Positions 28,073-37,767 of a DNA stretch of 64,000 nucleotides are shown one piece after another (positions within the stretch are counted from its first letter, which is position 1; every line of letters begins with the position of its first letter). Source of the DNA: Acidobacteriota bacterium (GTDB lineage: Bacteria; Acidobacteriota; Holophagae; Holophagales; Holophagaceae); NCBI GenBank assembly GCA_021794095.1, contig JAJYRN010000001.1, forward strand, positions 124,001 to 188,000. The letters are read 5' to 3'. The translations under genes were made by a program, and so were the position numbers. Under the pieces are notes generated by a model. The model worked only from the letters and a program-made list of their open reading frames with translations, was not told where the DNA came from and ran no database searches.

Positions 28073-29227
28073 TCATCGCACCCACCCCAGCGCCCCGGCC
28101 GCGGCGCCCAGGACCAGGACGAAGGCGGGATGCCAGCGGAAGCGCAGCAACAGGAGCAGCGCCAGGAGGGCCACCAGGATCCCGGGGAAGCCATGGATGG
28201 CACCCCGGACCAGCAGCAGGGCCGCCCCGAGGATGAGGCCCACCACCACGGGCGAGAGGCCCGCCAGCAGATCCTGGGCTCGGCCCAGATCCTTCAGCCG
28301 GGTGTAGAAGTGGGAGAGCAGGCTCATGAGGACCAGGGCCGGGAGGAACAGCGCCAGGGTGGCCACCAGCGCGCCGGGAACGCCCTGGAGGCGGTAGCCC
28401 GCGAAGGTGGCCAGCACGGCGATGGGGCCCGGCGTGAGGTTGCTGATAGCCACGCCATCCAGGAACTGGCGGGCATCCAGCCAGTGGAGCCGCTCCACCA
28501 GGGTCTGATGGAGGATGGGCACCAGCACGAACCCGCCGCCAAAGAACACGAAGCCCACTTTGAGGAAGGTCCAGCCCAGGCCCAGGAGGGAGGGCGCGGC
28601 CAGGGCCGCAGGGGCGGCCGCAGGCAGGGCCAGGGCCGCGGCGACAGGGGGGCGCTCCGGCGGCGGCTTGGGGCCGGGTTCTCCGGCCAGACGCCCCTTC
28701 CCCAGCCAGAGGCCCAGGATGGCGCCCGCCACGAGGACGGCGAGGCTGTTCCATTTCAGGAGGGAGAGGCCCAGCGCCAGGGCCAGCAATAGGATCGCGG
28801 CGGGGGTGCGCACCGCCGTGCGACCCATGGACCAGGCGGCGCTCAGGATGAGGGCGATGACCACGGGCCCCAGCCCCAGCAGGGCCGGCTGGAGTCCGGG
28901 AACGGCGTGGAAGGTGAAATAGAGCCAGGAGAGCAGGATCACCAGAACCACCGATGGCGCCAGGAAAGCCGCCGCGCAGGCCAGCCCGCCGAGGAACCCG
29001 AACCGCCGGTACCCCACGAAGAGCGCCGCGTTCACCGCGAAAGGACCGAGAAGCTGCCCCAGGGCGACACCGTGAAGGAATTCGTCTTCGGGGATCACCC
29101 GGCGCCGGCGCACCAGGTCGTGCTCCATGAGAGCCACCACCGCCATGCCGCCCCCGAAGCCGAGGGCCCCCAGGCGGAGGAAGAGGGCCGTCAGATACAG
29201 CAGGGAGAGGGGGCGGTCCTGCTCCAT
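28073..29227 (-). CDS. chrA: Chromate transporter ChrA
   Basis: A 384-residue two-domain CHR protein. Each half has the CHR signature: FLRLGALGFGGGMAVVALME (residues about 16-35) and FLKVGFVFFGGGFVLVPIL (about 221-240). Each is followed by a GVALGQLLGPFA or GVAISNLTPGPIAV block and several membrane helices. ChrA expels chromate or takes up sulfate-like oxyanions. It starts 3 bp after the ferredoxin gene stop, at the end of the TolC-MFP-RND-ferredoxin operon, an unusual setting for ChrA. It is convergent with the patatin gene. Confidence 0.93.
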   Translation of the reverse strand: MEQDRPLSLLYLTALFLRLGALGFGGGMAVVALMEHDLVRRRRVIPEDEFLHGVALGQLLGPFAVNAALFVGYRRFGFLGGLACAAAFLAPSVVLVILLSWLYFTFHAVPGLQPALLGLGPVVIALILSAAWSMGRTAVRTPAAILLLALALGLSLLKWNSLAVLVAGAILGLWLGKGRLAGEPGPKPPPERPPVAAALALPAAAPAALAAPSLLGLGWTFLKVGFVFFGGGFVLVPILHQTLVERLHWLDARQFLDGVAISNLTPGPIAVLATFAGYRLQGVPGALVATLALFLPALVLMSLLSHFYTRLKDLGRAQDLLAGLSPVVVGLILGAALLLVRGAIHGFPGILVALLALLLLLRFRWHPAFVLVLGAAAGALGWVR

Positions 29228-29230
29228 GGG

Positions 29231-29866
29231 CTACAACTTCGTCTCGTTGACCAGGACGAAGCCGTTGCGGCGGGCGAGGTCGCGCAGCATGGGCAGGAAG
29301 GCCTGGATGTCTTCCTGGCCTGTGGAGGCCACTTCGAAGCGCATGAAGGCGGGTGCCTTCTCTGCGGAGCCCTTGACGGTGGGCACCTGGAGGTCCAGGT
29401 TCACGAGATCCACGGGGTGGTCCGCGATGAGGTCCTGGAGCTGGCGGAGAAAGGGCTTGTCGCCGAAGGAACCGGCGATCTCCATCCGCGTCCGGCAGGT
29501 GAGACGGCCCAGCGTCTCCTCCGCTGCCGCGCGGGCGCGGGCCGCCCCCTGCTTGCCCCGCTTGGTCCTGGCCTCCTCCTTCACGACCTGGAGGATCTTG
29601 TGCTCGCGCTCGACCCGGCGGACCAGATCCCGATCCGGAAAGCGGATGGCGTCCGTGGGGCAGACCATGGCGCAGGTCGAGCAGCCCACCATGCAGGCGT
29701 AGGGATGGGCCGCCACGGCCTTCCGGTCGGTCATCACATAGACGCCCCGGCCACAGGTGACATAGCACAGTTCGCAGCCGATGCAGGCCCGGGCGTCCAC
29801 GGCGGGCAACCAGGGAATCTCCTCACGGGGGATCCCATGCCAAGGGTCAAGGGTGGCGGATGCCAT
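29231..29866 (-). CDS. Ferredoxin with two 4Fe-4S clusters and C-terminal domain
   Basis: A 211-residue protein. Residues about 26-80 have CIGCELCYVTC and then CMVGCSTCAMVCP, two cluster-binding motifs. A charged helical linker (REHKILQVVKEEARTKRG) follows. The C-terminal 80 residues (CRTRMEIAGSFGDKP ... LARRNGFVLV) have a beta-alpha-beta layout resembling NIL/ACT-type small-molecule-binding domains. It is soluble, with no signal peptide. ATG 29866 has GGAGGTG before it. It lies between the RND pump (13 bp) and ChrA (3 bp), so it is tightly co-transcribed. A redox partner of the efflux or chromate response is plausible but inferred. Confidence 0.88.
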   Translation of the reverse strand: MASATLDPWHGIPREEIPWLPAVDARACIGCELCYVTCGRGVYVMTDRKAVAAHPYACMVGCSTCAMVCPTDAIRFPDRDLVRRVEREHKILQVVKEEARTKRGKQGAARARAAAEETLGRLTCRTRMEIAGSFGDKPFLRQLQDLIADHPVDLVNLDLQVPTVKGSAEKAPAFMRFEVASTGQEDIQAFLPMLRDLARRNGFVLVNETKL

Positions 29867-29879
29867 GGCGCACCTCCGG

Positions 29880-32800
29880 TCAGGCCTCACCGTGGGTGGA
29901 TTCCGGCTCTGGCCTGGGGTGGCGGAAGCGGGCGGCCAGACCGTCGAACAGCTCGTAGAACATGGGCACGTAGACCAGCGTCAACAGCGTGGACACCATC
30001 AGCCCGCCGATGGCCACCACGGCCAGTGGCGAGAGCCGTTCCAGGCCGATGGCCCATTCCAGGGCGATGGGCAGCATGCCCACGGCGGTGCCCACGGCGG
30101 TCATGAGGATGGGCCGTGTGCGGGTGCGGACGGACTCGACGAGGGCCGCTTCCAGACCCATCCCCTTGGCGCGGGCCTCCTCGATGAAGTCCAGCAGCAG
30201 AATGCTGTTCTTCACGACGATGCCCGCCAGCAGAATCATGCCCATGAAGCCCGGCATGCAGCTGTGCTTGCCCGCCAGCAGCATGGACCAGATGGCCCCG
30301 ATGATGCCCAGGGGGATGGCCACCATGATCGTGAGCGGGTGGATCCAGGACTTGAACGCCGGCACCAGGCTGAAGTAGAGCAGCACCAGACCCAGCACCA
30401 GAGCCGACATCAGCGACGTGAAGGCCTCGGTCATGGTCTTCATCTCGCCCTCCTCGGTGATCGTGTAGCCGGGCGGGAGCTTCAGCCCTTCGAGCGCCTT
30501 CTGGACATTGGCCTCGATGTGGGTGACGGCGCCGGTGGAGCGGTAGCCCAGCACATCCACCGTCTCCTGGAGGTTCTGGCGGGTGTGCAGGGTGGGCACC
30601 GCCGCCGGCTCGATGCGGCCCAGGGAGGAGAGGGGCACGGGGCCCCGGGGCGTCATCACCGGCAAGGTGGCCAGGTCGAGGTCGCTCGTGCGGCGGGCGC
30701 CTTCGGCCTGGACCCACACGGCGAAGGAATCCTGGCCGGGGATGCGGAACAGGGTGGCGGGCATGCCCTTCACCTGGCCGCTGATCTGGGTACTGACCTG
30801 GTCCGCCGTGATGCCGTAGATGGCCATGCGGTCCCGGTCCGGAAGGAACCGGTACTCGGTGCGATCCAGGGTCCAGGTGGGCACCACGGCCGTGAGGCCG
30901 CCCACCTTCCCGAGCCGCGTCTGCACCTGCTGCCGAATCCCATCCAGCACTTGGGGATCGGGCCCTGAAATCATCAGGTCCACCGTGGCGCGGATGGTGG
31001 AGAGGGGCGTGGCGCCGTAGTCGAAGGCGGCCGGGAAGCGCAGCCCAGGGATGCCTTGCATGTCCTTGAGCACCTTCCCCTCGATGTCCCAGAGCGTGGC
31101 CTTGCGGTGGAAGCGGTCCACCAGGTGGACGGTGATGAAGGCCTGCTGGGGGTTGCGGCCCGATCCGAAGGAGAGGATGCCCGGTTCGGAGCCCAGGGTG
31201 GACGAGGTCATCGTCACCTCCGGCAGCTTCCAGATGGCCTGCTCCACCCGCGTGAGCGTCGCCTCGGTCTGCGGCATGGAGGTGTTGGGGTAGGTCTCGA
31301 AGGTGACGCGGAAGATGCCCGTATCCATGGGTGGCATGAGGTCGCGGCCCACCAGGGGCATGACCACGCGCCCCGCCAGCATGAGCATCATCACGGCGGG
31401 CATGATGAACAGCGCCTTGTGCCGGAGCGCGAATTTCAGCGTGCGGACGAAGAACTCCTGGATGGGGTGAAGCACCTTGCCCATGACGAAGCCATCCAGC
31501 TTCAGCTCCCAGGCCCGGCGTTCCATGCGCCCGCCCAGCCGGAGGATGAAGGGCGCGAAGATCGGGATAATGGTGACGGACACCACGTACGAAGCCAGCA
31601 GCGCGATGGTGAGCGTGAGGCTGAGGGGCCGCAGCACCGTCTGCACGAAGCCGCCGATCCAGATGATGGGCACCAGCACCGCCACCGTAGCGTAGGTGCC
31701 GGAGAGGATGGCCAGCATCACCTCTTCGGTGCCGCCGATGGTGGCCTCCTCCAGCGGCTGACCCAGCGTGTGGTAGTGCCGTTCGATGTTCTCCAGCACC
31801 ACGATGGCGTCGTCCAGCAGCATGCCCACGCCGAGGATCACGCCTGTCAGCGTCACCATGTCGAACTGGAATCCGAAGATCCACATGAAGGCGAAGGTGA
31901 TGAGGTACGTGAAGGGGATCGAAATGCCCGCCAGCAGCATGCCCCGCACATCCGCCAGGAACAGGAAGATGATGATGACGGTCATGATGATGGCGTCGCG
32001 CAGCGCGTCCACCATGTTCGACACGCTGGCGTGGATCAGTTCGCCCTGGGTATCCGCGATGCTGAACGAGAGGCCCGGGTACTGCCGCTCCAGGCTCGGC
32101 AAGGCCTTCGTGACACTCTCGATGGTGGGCAGGGCGAAGCCCGAGTTGGACCGCTGGATGTTGAGGCCGATGGCGGGCTTCCCGTTGCCGTGGAAGGCCG
32201 AAAGGCGCTCCTGGACATCCATGCGGACCTTGGCCACATCCTTCAGGTACACCGGGGCGCCCGGCCCCTGGCTCACGACGACGTTCCCGACCTGTTCGGG
32301 CCGGATGAACTCGCCCTGGTTCTTGAGGAGGATCTGGCCTTCCTTGGAGATCACCAGGCCCTCAGGGGTGTTGCGGTTCCACGCGTTCAGCGCCAGGGCC
32401 ACCTGGCCCGCGCTCAGGTGATGGGCCTGGAGCGCGTTGGGATCCAGATCCACCCGCAGCACGCTCTGGTAGCCGCCGAAGACCTCCACGTTGGAGACAT
32501 CCGGCAGCCGGAGGAGCGCCTCCTTGATGGGGTTGTCCGCCAGGCGGCGCACCATGGCGAGATCCAGGTTGGAACCCGGCTTGGGTGTCACCGAGAGCGT
32601 GAGCACCGCGGGCGTGGCCGAGGACACCTTGAAGACCTGGAAGGGCCGGATGTCCGGCGGGAGCTGGGCGCGGATCGTGTTCAGGGCGTTGGAGACATCC
32701 GTGGCGGCCGAGTCCAGTCCCTTGCGGTAGTTGAATTCCGCCATCACCACCGACACCTCGTCGTTGGAGGTGGAGGTCACCCGGCGGGTCAGCTCGATGG

Positions 32801-33017
32801 TTTTCAGTTCCTTCTCGACGACGCGGCTGACATCGTTGGCGACATCGTCTGCCGATGCGCCGGGCCACACCGTGACCACGGCAATCTGGGGGCGCTCGCT
32901 GTCGGGGAAGAGGTTGACGGGCATCTTGAAGAAACCCACCAGCCCCACCACCGCGAGCAGGAAGACCAGCGACAGCAGCAGGTGCGGCCGCTTCATGTAA
33001 CCTCGGACGAAGTTCAT
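29880..33017 (-). CDS. RND efflux pump, inner-membrane subunit
   Basis: A 1045-residue RND transporter with the usual 12-helix/two large periplasmic loop layout. The N-terminus MNFVRGYMKRPHLLLSLVFLL is typical. TM4 has GMLLDDAIVVLEN with the paired Asp of drug-type (HAE) pumps, and a later helix has GIVVKNSILLLDF with the matching Lys, so the proton relay looks intact and more HAE-like than metal (HME) type. It overlaps the membrane fusion protein gene by 4 bp (ATGA) and is followed 13 bp later by a ferredoxin gene. The substrate is unknown. Confidence 0.95.
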   Translation of the reverse strand: MNFVRGYMKRPHLLLSLVFLLAVVGLVGFFKMPVNLFPDSERPQIAVVTVWPGASADDVANDVSRVVEKELKTIELTRRVTSTSNDEVSVVMAEFNYRKGLDSAATDVSNALNTIRAQLPPDIRPFQVFKVSSATPAVLTLSVTPKPGSNLDLAMVRRLADNPIKEALLRLPDVSNVEVFGGYQSVLRVDLDPNALQAHHLSAGQVALALNAWNRNTPEGLVISKEGQILLKNQGEFIRPEQVGNVVVSQGPGAPVYLKDVAKVRMDVQERLSAFHGNGKPAIGLNIQRSNSGFALPTIESVTKALPSLERQYPGLSFSIADTQGELIHASVSNMVDALRDAIIMTVIIIFLFLADVRGMLLAGISIPFTYLITFAFMWIFGFQFDMVTLTGVILGVGMLLDDAIVVLENIERHYHTLGQPLEEATIGGTEEVMLAILSGTYATVAVLVPIIWIGGFVQTVLRPLSLTLTIALLASYVVSVTIIPIFAPFILRLGGRMERRAWELKLDGFVMGKVLHPIQEFFVRTLKFALRHKALFIMPAVMMLMLAGRVVMPLVGRDLMPPMDTGIFRVTFETYPNTSMPQTEATLTRVEQAIWKLPEVTMTSSTLGSEPGILSFGSGRNPQQAFITVHLVDRFHRKATLWDIEGKVLKDMQGIPGLRFPAAFDYGATPLSTIRATVDLMISGPDPQVLDGIRQQVQTRLGKVGGLTAVVPTWTLDRTEYRFLPDRDRMAIYGITADQVSTQISGQVKGMPATLFRIPGQDSFAVWVQAEGARRTSDLDLATLPVMTPRGPVPLSSLGRIEPAAVPTLHTRQNLQETVDVLGYRSTGAVTHIEANVQKALEGLKLPPGYTITEEGEMKTMTEAFTSLMSALVLGLVLLYFSLVPAFKSWIHPLTIMVAIPLGIIGAIWSMLLAGKHSCMPGFMGMILLAGIVVKNSILLLDFIEEARAKGMGLEAALVESVRTRTRPILMTAVGTAVGMLPIALEWAIGLERLSPLAVVAIGGLMVSTLLTLVYVPMFYELFDGLAARFRHPRPEPESTHGEA

Positions 33018-34105
33018 CGCGCGCCTCCCAGGGGCTGGAGGCGCGTACCGGCGGTGAGGGCCATCAGTTCACTGGGAAGGCCCAGCACCACCTGGTCGCC
33101 GGCGGCGATGCCGGTCACCGCCGCCGTGGATTCGCCCCGGAGCAGCACCGTCACCGGCACGGGCACGGCTTTCCCATTCACCACTTTCACCACCAGCGTC
33201 TGTGTAAGACCTTCCAGCAGGGCCTGAGCGGGCACCACGACCCCCTGCACCGGCTTCGTGCGGTACTCGGCCTGCACCGTGGCTCCGGCGGGAAGGCCGA
33301 AGGGCGCGACCTTGAGGTCCGTCTCCACGGTGCCCAGGTGCGCCATATCCAGCGCCGGGTGGATGAGGCTGGTCTTGAGGGTGAGCGCCTGGTTGCCGGT
33401 GCGGAAAACCACCTCCTGGCCCGCGGTCAGGGTGGCCAGGCTGTCCTGGCTCAGCTTGCTGATGAGCTTCACGGGGCCGGGTACTTCCATGGCAAAGAGG
33501 GGCTTGCCGGGCGTGGCCAGATCGCCGGGGTTCACCAGCTTCTGGGTGATGATTCCGGTGTAGGGAGCGGGCACCGCCGCGTAGCCGCGCTGGATGCGTA
33601 CGGAGGCCAGGGCGCGCTCAGCGCCCACATCGCCGGCCTTCACCGCGGCGAGCCGCGCCTGGGAGATCTCGAAGGCCTGCTGGCTGATGGCCCCCGCCTT
33701 GAGCAGGATCCGGTCCCGGTTGTGGATGGCCTGCTGCTTGGCCAGTTCTTCGTGCGCCGCCGCGGCCCGCGCCTGGGCCGCCTGGAGCGCATCGTCCAGG
33801 GTGCGCGGATCAATGACGGCCAGGGTCTGGCCCCGGCGGACGCTATCACCTTCCTGCACCTTCACGTCGAGGATCGTGCCCGGAACCTGGGCCGCCACGG
33901 TGGCGGAGGTGGTGGCCTCCACCAGGGCCACGGTGCTGAGCGATCCGCCCGCCTGCCCTTCGCGCGCAAAGGCGGTGCGCACGGGGATGGCGGCCTCGTG
34001 GGGCGGCGGCATGCGCGCGATGGCATGCTTCCGGGCGGCGATGGCCGCGGCCATGCCCCCCAGGACCACCAGAGCGATGACGAGGGCGAGGCTGCGCTTA
34101 CTCAT
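33014..34105 (-). CDS. RND efflux periplasmic membrane fusion protein
   Basis: A 363-residue HlyD/AcrA-type adaptor. An N-terminal membrane anchor (SLALVIALVVLGGMAAAIA) is followed by the biotinyl-lipoyl half AAQVPGTILDVKVQEGDSVRRGQ, a helical hairpin (about 110-165), then YAAVPAPYTGIITQKLVNPGD and the beta-barrel/membrane-proximal domains. It bridges the RND pump and TolC. The start at 34105 follows GAAGGAG. It overlaps TolC's 3' end by 8 bp and RND's 5' end by 4 bp, so the three form one translationally coupled unit. Confidence 0.93.
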   Translation of the reverse strand: MSKRSLALVIALVVLGGMAAAIAARKHAIARMPPPHEAAIPVRTAFAREGQAGGSLSTVALVEATTSATVAAQVPGTILDVKVQEGDSVRRGQTLAVIDPRTLDDALQAAQARAAAAHEELAKQQAIHNRDRILLKAGAISQQAFEISQARLAAVKAGDVGAERALASVRIQRGYAAVPAPYTGIITQKLVNPGDLATPGKPLFAMEVPGPVKLISKLSQDSLATLTAGQEVVFRTGNQALTLKTSLIHPALDMAHLGTVETDLKVAPFGLPAGATVQAEYRTKPVQGVVVPAQALLEGLTQTLVVKVVNGKAVPVPVTVLLRGESTAAVTGIAAGDQVVLGLPSELMALTAGTRLQPLGGAR

Positions 34106-35402
34106 GGGAGGCTCCTTCCACGAAATCGAGATAGTCGAGGGCGCTCTGGAGGGCGTAGAGCCCCTGCCAGTAGCCGGTGAGGCCCTGCAGTTCCTGGGTC
34201 CGGCCCGCCAGGTAGTCCTCCATGCGGCCGGCGCCCTGTTCAAGCTTGAGGTGCTCGATGCGGGCCACCTCGGCGCCCAGGGCGCGCTGGGCCTTCCCTG
34301 CGGCGAACTGGGCCTCCGCGGCCTTCACGCGCTGCACGGCTTCCACCACCTGGCTGCGCACTTCCAGCGTCTTCCCCTGTTCGCGCTCCCGCGCCTCCAG
34401 CAGCTCCGCCTGGGCCGCATGGAGGTTCTGACTGCGCTGGCGCCCCGAGAAGAGCGTCCACTTCAGGTTCAGGCTCACCTCGTTGGTGTTGTAGGTCGGC
34501 AGGTTCGGGCCGTTGTTCTTGAGGGCCAGACCCGTGATCCCCACCTGGGGCAGGTAGGCTTCCAGGCCCAGGGCCTTCTTCCGCTCGAAGACCTGCGTGC
34601 CGGTCCGCGCGGCCTTCAGGTCCATGCGCTCCGCCAGGGCCTGCTCCGTGAGCGCGGCCACATCGAGGCCCGGCACCTCCGGCGCCTCGGGGATGTCCTG
34701 AAGGTCGTAGCCCTCGCGGGGCGGCGGATCCCCCATGAGGGCCGCCAGCATCGCCTGGGCGCCCGCCTCCTGGGCCGCCACACCCGCCCGCTGCGCCTTG
34801 GCCGATTCCAGGGCGAAGTGGATCTTCGCGCCGTCCACCGAGGCCCAGGCCCCCAGCTTCACCTTCAGGTCCGCATCGGCCGCATCCTTCGCCAGGGCGG
34901 CCACCAGGCTGTCGAGGGCCGCGTGGGCATGGTGGAGCGCCAGGGTCTGCCGGTAGGTGGCCCGCACGTTGTAGCGGATCTCCGCCTGGGTATGGAGCGC
35001 CAGCTCCGCCGCGGCGTCCCGGCTGAGGCGGGCCATGCGCTGGCCTTCCATGATCTGGCCGGAAGCCAGGATGGGCACGGTCCACGCGATGCCGTAGTGG
35101 AACTGGCTCGCGGCCCAGGGCAGCCCGTAGAAGCCCTTGGGCCCCAGGTAGTCCAGGGAGATGGGCGCGATGGGCCGCTCGGTGTTGTAGTGGTTGTAGG
35201 AACCCACCACGCTCAGCTCGCCGAAGTGCCGCCCCCCGGCGGCCTTGGCCCGGCTGGACGCGGCGGCCGCCTCCAGCTGCGCGGCCCGCAGGCGCGGATT
35301 GGCCGCCAGGGCCTTCTCCGTGGCCTGCTGGAGGGTCAGGGGCGTCCCCGCAGCGGCCAGGGTGCAGGCCAGCACGGGAAGCAGCAGGAAGACGTGTTTC
35401 AT
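34098..35402 (-). CDS. TolC-family outer-membrane efflux protein
   Basis: A 434-residue protein with a signal peptide (MKHVFLLLPVLACTLAAA), then LTLQQATEKALAANPRLRAAQLE, the first TolC helix, and a second matching repeat from about residue 215 (LTEQALAERMDLKAARTG). Long Ala/Glu-rich helices alternate with short strands (VSLNLKWTLFSG), as in OEP channel proteins. The ATG at 35402 is used because AGGAG lies at good spacing; a GTG 3 bp upstream is less likely. It heads the pump operon and is 129 bp downstream of the LexA/CRP hybrid regulator on the same strand. Confidence 0.93.
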   Translation of the reverse strand: MKHVFLLLPVLACTLAAAGTPLTLQQATEKALAANPRLRAAQLEAAAASSRAKAAGGRHFGELSVVGSYNHYNTERPIAPISLDYLGPKGFYGLPWAASQFHYGIAWTVPILASGQIMEGQRMARLSRDAAAELALHTQAEIRYNVRATYRQTLALHHAHAALDSLVAALAKDAADADLKVKLGAWASVDGAKIHFALESAKAQRAGVAAQEAGAQAMLAALMGDPPPREGYDLQDIPEAPEVPGLDVAALTEQALAERMDLKAARTGTQVFERKKALGLEAYLPQVGITGLALKNNGPNLPTYNTNEVSLNLKWTLFSGRQRSQNLHAAQAELLEAREREQGKTLEVRSQVVEAVQRVKAAEAQFAAGKAQRALGAEVARIEHLKLEQGAGRMEDYLAGRTQELQGLTGYWQGLYALQSALDYLDFVEGASHE

Positions 35403-35473
35403 CACTCGCTCCTCAGGACAGGGTGTGGCGTCCTCTGTTCCCCCCGGCCTGGGGCCAGGGCCCGTGCGCGGCA

Positions 35474-35486
35474 GCGGATCATCCGC
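35474..35486. promoter_or_regulatory. Palindrome upstream of the efflux operon
   Basis: GCGGAT-C-ATCCGC, perfect 6-bp arms with a 1-nt centre, lies 72 bp upstream of the tolC-like ATG in the 129-bp gap after the regulator gene. It is a candidate operator for the pump operon, but its sequence is unlike the palindrome at the regulator's own start. Confidence 0.35.
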
Positions 35487-35531
35487 CTTGCACAGGTTCG
35501 GCGCGATGACCCTCTCCCTCGTTGCTCCCGA

Positions 35532-36464
35532 TCAACTTCCCAACGATTCCCGTCCCGAGGCCAGCCGTCTCAGGGCCTCCAGGTGGAGCACCTGGAACCG
35601 GCGCGGCCCGAGCCGGTGCAGCACCCCCCGCCGGACGAGGGCCGCCAGCGCCCGCGAGAAGGAGGCCGGAGTCAGGCCGATGTCCTCGGCGAAGGCCCGG
35701 GCGCTGCCTGGAATGGCGACGATGGGATAGGGGCCGCCCGGCACCAGGGGCTCCAGGGCCGCCGCCACGCGGGTCAACGCACTGCGGATGGAGAGCTGCT
35801 CGATGGTGTCGAAGGCCTTGCGCAGTTGGCGGGCCAGGAGCGCGAGAAGGGCCACCGACATCCCCGGCTCCTCCAGGGCGGCCTGGAGATCCCGCCGGTG
35901 AATCAGCCTCACCCGCGTAGCTGCCAGGGCCTCCACCGAGGCCGGCAGGCTGCCGCCATCGAAGAAGGGCGCGAAACCCAGCACATCCCCGGGCCCGAAG
36001 CGCAGCAGGGTGGCGGTGCGGCCATCCTCGAAGGTCCGAAAGGCCCGCAACAGGCCATGTTCCACCTGCACCAGCCGGTCCGCCGGATCGCCCTCCCGCC
36101 AGAGGGAGCTGCCCTTGGGCAGCATCACCCCCCGGGCATGGGCCTCCAGGAGCTGCATGACCGCCTGGGGGCCCGCCAGACCGAGGGGGGATGGCAGCGC
36201 CGGAACGGGGGCTTTCCGGGGCACCTCCACCCGGAGCCGCCCGGACTCGGTGAGGCGGATGGCCCGGGCCCGGCCGGGCTCCACCTGCACGAGGCCCAGG
36301 GCCTGGAGCCGGCCCAGGTACTCGCGCACCGCCGCCGCCGAGCGCCAGCCCAGCGCCAAGGCCAGCTCCCGCAGTGTGGGGGGCAGCCGACCGGCGGGCC
36401 AGATGGACAGCGCCTGGAGCACCCGGCGTTCGGCCGCCGTGAGGGGGGCATCCGGAACAACCAT
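35532..36464 (-). CDS. Hybrid regulator: LexA-type winged helix + CRP/FNR core
   Basis: A 310-residue protein. Residues about 8-73 match a LexA-type winged helix: LTAAERRVLQALS, then LPPTLRELALALGW, SAAAVREYLGRLQALGLV and a GRARAIRLT wing. Residues about 105-195 form a cNMP-type beta-roll, with PGDVLGFAPFFDGGSLPASVEAL. CRP's Gly-Glu and Arg-Ser cyclic-nucleotide contacts are absent there, so cAMP binding is doubtful. A long helix follows (ALLARQLRKAFDTIEQL), then a CRP-type HTH at 255-280 (ARAFAEDIGLTPASFSRALAA). It therefore has two DNA-binding domains. A palindrome covers its start codon. It is upstream of and co-oriented with the TolC-MFP-RND-ferredoxin-ChrA operon, which it may control. 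Confidence 0.87.
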   Translation of the reverse strand: MVVPDAPLTAAERRVLQALSIWPAGRLPPTLRELALALGWRSAAAVREYLGRLQALGLVQVEPGRARAIRLTESGRLRVEVPRKAPVPALPSPLGLAGPQAVMQLLEAHARGVMLPKGSSLWREGDPADRLVQVEHGLLRAFRTFEDGRTATLLRFGPGDVLGFAPFFDGGSLPASVEALAATRVRLIHRRDLQAALEEPGMSVALLALLARQLRKAFDTIEQLSIRSALTRVAAALEPLVPGGPYPIVAIPGSARAFAEDIGLTPASFSRALAALVRRGVLHRLGPRRFQVLHLEALRRLASGRESLGS

Positions 36465-36476
36465 ACAAAAGTATGG
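36461..36476. promoter_or_regulatory. Palindromic operator candidate over the regulator start codon
   Basis: CCATAC-AAAA-GTATGG, perfect 6-bp arms with a 4-bp spacer. The regulator ATG (36464) lies in the left arm. This is the layout expected for autorepression, or it could control the divergent lipoprotein gene at 36613. No second copy was noticed in the window. Confidence 0.5.
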
Positions 36477-36612
36477 ATCATTCCGGCCACCGGGAAACCC
36501 AGGATCTGCCAACCCCCACGGTCGCGGGCCAGCGGCCTCAGCAACTCCAGCGCGGATCCCGGGGCCGGACCGGACTACACTGGACCGAATCGTCCTTGCT
36601 CCAGGAGTGACC

Positions 36613-37767
36613 ATGCGCGCGCGTTCGATCCTGGCCGTCCTGCTCCTCGGGTTCGCCCTGGCCTGCGGGGGCGGCAGCGGCTCCGGCGGCTCCGGCGCCA
36701 CCGGCAGCCTGACCCTCCGCTTCGGCTCCGACAGCTTCCCCGGCTACGACCAGGCCGTGGTGAGCGTGGAGAAGGTGGAGGCCTCCACCAACGGCTCCAC
36801 CTGGATGGCCCTCGGCAACGTGCAGGCCACCTACGACCTGATGACCCTCCAGAACGGCCACAGCGCCGCGCTGCTGTCCAACATCGCCGTGCCCCCGGCC
36901 ACCTACACCCAGTTCCGCATCACCTGGGCGACAAGCAATTATGCCCACCCGACAACTGATCCGGCGGCTTGGGTCAAACCCACAGGTGCCTCCATCGGGC
37001 AGTCCATGTCCATGCCCGCCACGACCGTGATCCCTGGCCCGGTGACCGTGAATTCAAGCGCCAGCACCACCGCACAAATCATGCTTTCCGGCCAGCAACC
37101 CGTGCAGTTCCGTGCGGGAATGGCCCTCCCCTACACCTTCCAGGCCACGGGGCAGGCCTACGATCTCTCCCAGACGGCCAGCATCACCGGGAAGCTGACG
37201 GATGGCACCACGCCCCTGGTGGGGGCAGAGGTCTATGCGGAGACGGTGGATGGCCTCCAGGTGGCCACCATCCAGCGCCGGGCCTTCACGGATGGCACCG
37301 GCAGCTACCTGCTGGAGTGCCTGCCCGCGGGCGCCAGCACGGCCTACTTCGTGGTGTCCCAGCCCGCCAGCACCCTTTCGGCCTATGCCGCCGAGGCGTC
37401 CAGCCCCATTAGCACGACGGCCGCCGCCACCGCCACCGCGAACCTAGCCTTCAGCAACGCCCAGCAGCCGGGTGCCTTGACCCTGACCATCACCCCTCCC
37501 TCCCTCCCGACCGTGGATACCTGGGGCGAGCTGCGGCAGAACCTCTCCGCGGGCCCCGGCCTGCTGGAGAACCTCATCGTCCGCTCCCAGAGCGCCGTCA
37601 CAGGCGCCTCCCAAGACCAGGTGTTCTTCACCGGACTGGCTCCCAACTACTACGGTGTGACCGCCCAGCGCAGCACCGCCGGAGCCACCCCGGTGACCCA
37701 GACCTTCCCGTCCCAAGTCCCAGTCTCCTCCGGCGCCACCGCCACCGTCAGCCTCAGCTATCCCTGA
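36613..37767 (+). CDS. DUF4382-type lipoprotein with carboxypeptidase-like repeat
   Basis: A 384-residue lipoprotein: signal MRARSILAVLLLGFALAC with lipobox LAC, then a Gly/Ser linker. The DUF4382 domain (about 30-180) has SLTLRFGSDSFPGYDQAVVSVEKVE and the strand set around TYTQFRITWATS. A second beta-domain (about 190-290) with SITGKLTDGTTPLVGAEVYAE resembles a carboxypeptidase-regulatory-like fold, and a third related segment follows. It is probably outer-membrane-attached and exposed to periplasm or outside. Function unknown. A TACACT box at 36576 may be its -10. A strong hairpin follows it. Confidence 0.85.
   Translation: MRARSILAVLLLGFALACGGGSGSGGSGATGSLTLRFGSDSFPGYDQAVVSVEKVEASTNGSTWMALGNVQATYDLMTLQNGHSAALLSNIAVPPATYTQFRITWATSNYAHPTTDPAAWVKPTGASIGQSMSMPATTVIPGPVTVNSSASTTAQIMLSGQQPVQFRAGMALPYTFQATGQAYDLSQTASITGKLTDGTTPLVGAEVYAETVDGLQVATIQRRAFTDGTGSYLLECLPAGASTAYFVVSQPASTLSAYAAEASSPISTTAAATATANLAFSNAQQPGALTLTITPPSLPTVDTWGELRQNLSAGPGLLENLIVRSQSAVTGASQDQVFFTGLAPNYYGVTAQRSTAGATPVTQTFPSQVPVSSGATATVSLSYP

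Follow-up and report, generated by a model that had tools for sequence, protein, structure and literature searches.

A LexA-CRP fusion regulator conserved in Holophagaceae and predicted to use two operator classes flanking its own gene

Our analyses support a domain order, a LexA-type winged helix followed by a complete CRP/FNR protein, that is real, conserved and undescribed, and that belongs to the CRP/FNR kind and not to a new one. In the reading that we prefer, with a probability of roughly 0.6, the CRP head would activate the adjacent efflux and chromate-transporter operon and the LexA head would autorepress the regulator gene. That one chain would in this way be both activator and repressor, through two DNA-binding families on two operator classes flanking its own gene, we rate a shade lower, at slightly better than even odds.

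Bacterial one-component regulators usually combine one DNA-binding domain with one sensor. In a survey of 761 genomes, LexA was classed as a non-promiscuous family (PMC5882156). A LexA head on a complete CRP protein, with a second operator class seen where the head is present, constitutes a testable case in which domain grafting would have given a regulator a second DNA specificity and in which two heads would divide activation and autorepression between them. For the chromate-transporter/RND efflux operons of Geothrix relatives, on whose regulation a literature search returned nothing, it further supplies a candidate regulator together with a promoter logic. The architecture, its conserved clade, the two classes of site with their positions and the operon linkage were all computed.

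In the window, i.e. the whole stretch of 64,000 nucleotides that was analysed, the regulator gene (start codon ATG at 36464-36462) and its parts are as follows:

35532..36464, minus strand: LexA-CRP fusion regulator, 310 aa, ATG start (reading frame and domain matches)
36261..36449, minus strand: N-terminal LexA-type winged helix, residues 6-68 (PF01726, E 1.6e-12)
36165..36248, minus strand: variable linker, residues 73-100 (pairwise identity of main-clade copies 0.18-0.33; dN/dS relaxed)
35871..36122, minus strand: cNMP-type beta-roll with replaced cAMP contacts, residues 115-198 (PF00027, E 1.1e-16)
35745..35867, minus strand: long dimerisation (C) helix, residues 200-240 (AF2 secondary structure, CRP alignment)
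35562..35771, minus strand: C-terminal CRP/FNR-type HTH with an xxxSR recognition helix, residues 232-301 (PF13545, E 1e-10)

Each of the three domains exceeds its curated Pfam cut-off (LexA_DNA_bind at 6-68, 47.4 bits vs 23.7; cNMP_binding at 115-198, 61 vs 27.5; HTH_Crp_2 at 232-301, 41.9 vs 27), PF00027 and PF13545 placing the window protein among the CRP/FNR proteins, and all three families were matched at E <= 0.01 in 12/12 intact relatives scanned singly. The NCBIfam lexA model TIGR00498 matched residues 6-74 (E 2e-11, 43.9 bits of 110.95), the FixK and FtrB models of the same collection gave partial matches, and sequence matches in the PDB fell on CRP/FNR proteins over residues ~96-304 and on LexA over residues 9-74. 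Neither Pfam nor NCBIfam gave an S24 autopeptidase match in the fusion protein; the [4Fe-4S] cysteines of FNR proper are absent, the window protein having no cysteine anywhere. The AF2 model (pLDDT 76.6) is composed of a three-helix winged head (helices 10-20, 31-38 and 43-55 plus a beta wing), the roll, a long helix and the C-terminal HTH, with low pLDDT in the linker region 81-94 and over much of the roll (53-70). Its head superposes on the LexA-DNA structure 3jsp at 1.4 A over 68 residues with 34% identity, MarR folds scoring alike, and fold searches alone do not separate LexA from other winged helices.

These results bear out the first-pass annotation, made from the sequence of the window, which had described a two-headed regulator with a LexA-type N-terminal domain, a cNMP roll, a dimerisation helix and a CRP-type HTH. 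A generic MarR winged helix at the N-terminus was rejected, as MarR_2 scored 25.9 bits against its cut-off of 27 and LexA_DNA_bind 47.4 bits. An unstructured leader was rejected on the Pfam cut-offs and on selection: purifying selection acts on the LexA-type winged helix, whose dN/dS (0.02-0.37) is comparable to that of the roll and the HTH, the linker reaching up to 1.1. A mis-called start was rejected because of in-frame stops 3-5 codons upstream of the same ATG in two relatives (G011 and G065_C308). Invariant residues of the head (P29, R32, G39, W40, A44, R47, R67 and R70) lie in its wing and helix-3 region. The same annotation knew of no described family with this order; the literature search found none either, no full-length Pfam or NCBIfam model covers it, and the homologue search that it had proposed did recover the order elsewhere.

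Thirteen copies of the LexA-CRP order were found in 8 of 77 Holophagaceae genomes, within 2 of 11 genera (relatives of Geothrix): one each in G000, G011, G034 and G435, two each in G027, G065 and G069, and three in G419. The fusion of the window is single-copy in its own genome. The 12 intact copies form one clade with support 98/97 in a tree of the CRP part, and the best explanation is that a dimeric CRP/FNR-type activator acquired its LexA-type winged helix in a single grafting event within Holophagaceae. Full-length matches were confined to this family both when 396 genomes of the phylum were searched with a profile, few candidates being scored in each genome, and when ~85,000 species were scanned with patterns taken from the roll; the next relatives in the phylum align from residue ~81-113 onward and do not have the first head. 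In ten genomes searched with LexA_DNA_bind, no more than one match per genome lay outside the fusions, in a frame of its own; nine of these matches were read as housekeeping LexA, and the 72%-complete genome of G011 gave none. A phage or plasmid origin was considered and rejected, no plasmid place covering 80% and none occurring in viral contigs. A resolvase-like recombinase lies near one of the two near-identical fusion copies of G069, at a contig end (L044:3494-4090, G069:C1), and hints at mobility. The one copy that is not intact (G435, L075:8894-9853) is split by an internal in-frame TAG and has a degenerate CCAYAC-like site, possibly representing a decaying copy, read-through or an assembly error.

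Downstream of the regulator, on the same strand, the window holds an efflux and chromate-transporter operon in the order OMF-MFP-RND-FeS-ChrA:

34098..35405, minus strand: outer-membrane efflux protein, OMF (PF02321, E 2.2e-32)
33014..34111, minus strand: RND periplasmic adaptor, MFP (TIGR01730, E 6.3e-45)
29880..33017, minus strand: RND permease (PF00873, E 2.6e-203)
29231..29890, minus strand: 4Fe-4S ferredoxin-like protein (Fer4 families; true start probably inside)
28073..29227, minus strand: two-domain chromate transporter of the CHR family, ChrA (PF02417, E 4.1e-84; TIGR00937, 243.8 bits vs a cut-off of 171.7)

The same RND operon follows the regulator in G027, G034 and G065, and stands behind an FmdE-type gene in G011. 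The MFP ortholog occurs in 5/77 genomes of the family, all five with a main-clade regulator, and nowhere else among them. The second copies in G027 and G065 are followed by genes for FmdE and a cation-efflux protein, the divergent G069 copies by ChrA, with an RND system in addition in one, G419_a by RND-MFP-OMF, G419_c by FmdE and ChrA, and the G435 copy by ChrA, while G419_b is the last gene of FmdE-ChrA-Reg. In the eight genomes, 7 of 13 ChrA proteins are encoded within fusion-regulator clusters. An FmdE-domain protein (PF02663) recurs with ChrA and the regulator (L033:5981-6652, L073:14581-15207, L074:7609-8319). Between two fusion regulators of G419 (L073:9060-12370), ArsR-like regulator, permease, thioredoxin-like and CcdA-like genes on the plus strand, read by eye, look like a metalloid-resistance island. 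A 1121-aa open reading frame antisense to the operon (window 33594-36959, plus strand) is an artefact of high G+C content and not a gene.

Between the regulator and this operon lies the first class of candidate operator:

35522..35535, minus strand: FNR-type box TTGATCGGGAGCAA, overlapping the regulator stop codon
35494..35499, minus strand: -10-like hexamer GAACCT, 22 bp past the box, with A2 and T6 in 13/13 copies

The consensus TTGAYC-N5-CAA is found near the regulator stop, ahead of an OMF-MFP-RND, FmdE or ChrA operon; TTGATC-N5-CAA stands at or just past the stop in 12/13 copies, and the thirteenth (G419_b) has TTGACCTGGGTCAA ahead of FmdE-ChrA-Reg. When the -10-like hexamer was scanned at all offsets, only the 22-bp spacing had A2 and T6 in 13/13 copies, with a mean -10 score of 1.38 vs an all-offset mean of -5.98 (sd 1.92). 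At that spacing xAxxxT was present in 14/14 distinct promoters, a set that includes four from single-headed relatives, vs <=6 in 20000 shuffles. Because the hexamer comes exactly 22 bp after the box, the box would be centred at -41.5, the position of class II activation, relative to a transcription start predicted at about 35487; the conserved A and T of the hexamer then fall at -11 and -7. The CRP/FNR-type operator is thus at the class II position relative to the predicted -10. For FNR, a box at -41.5, the match at -11A/-7T and recognition of TTGAT by ETxSR have been described (PMC7349173). The G069 copies and G419_a have an ETLSR recognition helix and TTGATC-NN-GMTCAA boxes; the main clade has Ala in place of FNR's Glu in ExxSR and, in its boxes, an imperfect right half; the box of G034 departs from the palindrome at 2 positions. 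A reading of TTGATC as an ordinary -35 hexamer was rejected, inspection giving no -10 at 17 bp, the hexamer lying 22 bp past the 14-bp box. In two further genomic places TTGATCCAGAGCAA with the hexamer at 22-bp spacing lies ~70 bp upstream of the gene for an outer-membrane porin of the Porin_O_P type (L155:1501-1542, G065:C269:8735-8776; L160:1501-1542, G027:C138:6715-6756), and this porin is a possible distant target of the regulator.

The second class of site lies at the other end of the regulator gene:

36461..36476, no strand assigned: palindrome CCATAC-N4-GTATGG, predicted autoregulatory operator, spanning the start codon and a -10-like CATACT

CCAYAC-N4-GTRTGG occurs near or over the regulator start with <=1 mismatch in 9 copies. 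In the main clade, CCATAC-N4-GTATGG is placed at -12..+4 of the ATG in 7/7 copies with 0-1 mismatch, and across five contexts whose upstream DNA is unrelated it is 93% identical vs 30% for the flanks. The two copies of G069 carry CCACAC-N4-GTGTGG at -28, G419_a a version with 2 mismatches at -27, and G419_c and G435 a degenerate site with 3 mismatches. No CCAYAC site was found at G419_b, as expected if the site belongs to the regulator's own promoter, since that copy ends its FmdE-ChrA-Reg operon. A -10-like hexamer, CATACT or CATAAT, is embedded in the main-clade site five bases ahead of the ATG, an arrangement that suggests a self-repressed and near-leaderless gene. In the genome of the window the zero-mismatch site occurs once. 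A role as a global regulon motif was rejected, genome counts not exceeding the reversed control in most genomes, so that the site appears local. Membership in the SOS regulon was likewise rejected: no CCAYAC site with <=1 mismatch was found at the housekeeping lexA of the same genome, nor was one seen by eye in the lexA promoters read.

Activation, repression and the ligand are inferred, as is the pairing of heads with sites, which we draw from comparison with single-headed CRP relatives (G054, G092, G079, G164 and G300) from other families of Acidobacteriota, whose roll and HTH sequences are the closest to those of the fusion. They share a GFxPLxDG-like pocket, the box and the -10 spacing, and part of them lie near arsenic or RND genes; unlike the fusion, they have no LexA head, and 0/5 have CCAYAC upstream of their own gene. 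Five perfect TTGAY-N4-RTCAA boxes stand by neighbouring genes of G054, G092 and G079, with the same 22-bp spacing to xAxxxT. Because only TTGAY boxes accompany the single-headed proteins, the CRP half would be the partner of the TTGAY box. The LexA head is the most likely partner of the CCAYAC site, by co-occurrence and elimination, although the host may have another factor for it. In the mechanism that we propose, the roll would sense efflux-related stress, the CRP head, bound at -41.5 to the FNR-type box just beyond the end of the regulator gene, would bring RNA polymerase to the neighbouring operon, which in the window is OMF-MFP-RND-FeS-ChrA, and the LexA head would bind CCAYAC-N4-GTRTGG at the promoter and start of the regulator and repress it.

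Different scenarios might explain the two site classes. Activation and repression are both possible for CRP/FNR proteins, and winged helices fold alike across many unrelated proteins, so that the CRP head might serve both sites, as class II activator at TTGATC and repressor at CCAYAC, the LexA head being a dimerisation or ligand-coupling module devoid of specificity of its own. The half-sites TTGAT and CCATAC are, however, unrelated, the single-headed relatives have TTGAY sites only, and residues of the wing and helix-3 region of the LexA head are conserved, all of which makes this scenario unlikely. A little less probable still is that another CRP/FNR protein of the host uses the TTGATC box and the fusion binds only its own promoter. 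The genus does have CRP/FNR paralogs, and composite-promoter matches occur in sister-genus genomes devoid of the regulator (G143 and G436), so that boxes of this type may also serve other CRP/FNR proteins; but five same-genus genomes lacking the fusion, some of them carrying the paralog, gave no composite match, the box travels with the fusion gene past differing downstream genes (OMF, FmdE, ChrA, RND), and it also accompanies the single-headed relatives in other families.

The first-pass annotation had instead suggested that the two heads may bridge two sites, which here would form a loop of ~940 bp coupling autoregulation to operon activation, and this we regard as the least probable of the three. 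Both site classes do flank the gene in most copies, yet their spacing follows automatically from gene length, G419_b has no CCAYAC site, and class II geometry needs no loop. Separate jobs for the two heads, operon activation and autoregulation, fit the evidence at least as well as a DNA loop.

As to the signal, the roll reads G163-F164 and P174-A175, F164 and P174 being invariant in an alignment of 12 sequences; they take the places of Glu and Arg in the two pairs of cAMP contacts, Gly-Glu and Arg-Ser, which the earlier annotation had correctly called missing. A signal other than cAMP is plausible for the roll. The invariance of F164, P166, F168, P174, F218 and W122 suggests a hydrophobic pocket, and the ligand is perhaps hydrophobic or aromatic; no pocket geometry was taken from the AF2 model because of the low pLDDT of the roll. 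A similar pocket, GFLPLLDGGPWPLS, is present in the closest single-headed relatives, and the pocket change is therefore older than the fusion.

Among known systems, the fusion resembles the CRP/FNR class II activators FNR, FixK2 and DNR in its cNMP-type roll, dimerisation helix and HTH_Crp, in its TTGAT-type box at -41.5 (predicted here) and in its xxxSR helix, ETLSR in part of the clade. It differs from them by an added N-terminal LexA-type head and a second operator class, and by having neither Fe-S cysteines nor cAMP contacts. ChrB, a 312-aa regulator of chromate operons with proposed N-terminal DNA-binding and C-terminal metal-detecting parts (PMC3817168), is similarly a local regulator beside chrA, with an AT-rich inverted repeat over its -10 and suggested autorepression; unlike the fusion it is two-domain, and no CRP or LexA match is reported for it in that paper. 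With the LexA repressor (PF01726 plus peptidase S24) the fusion shares the N-terminal winged helix, by profile and fold, and the 16-bp geometry CCAY-N8-RTGG of its predicted operator is that of E. coli LexA, CTGT-N8-ACAG. It differs from LexA in having no autopeptidase domain, and the genomes encode a housekeeping LexA in addition to it. The promoters of these housekeeping lexA genes (L121-L129, ~60-120 bp upstream of the LexA frames) share a aggcgaaaaaaaagggattgac-type sequence and, further upstream, AGTATG-GCAGA or ACCAGA-TGGT elements, as candidates for the LexA box of Holophagaceae.
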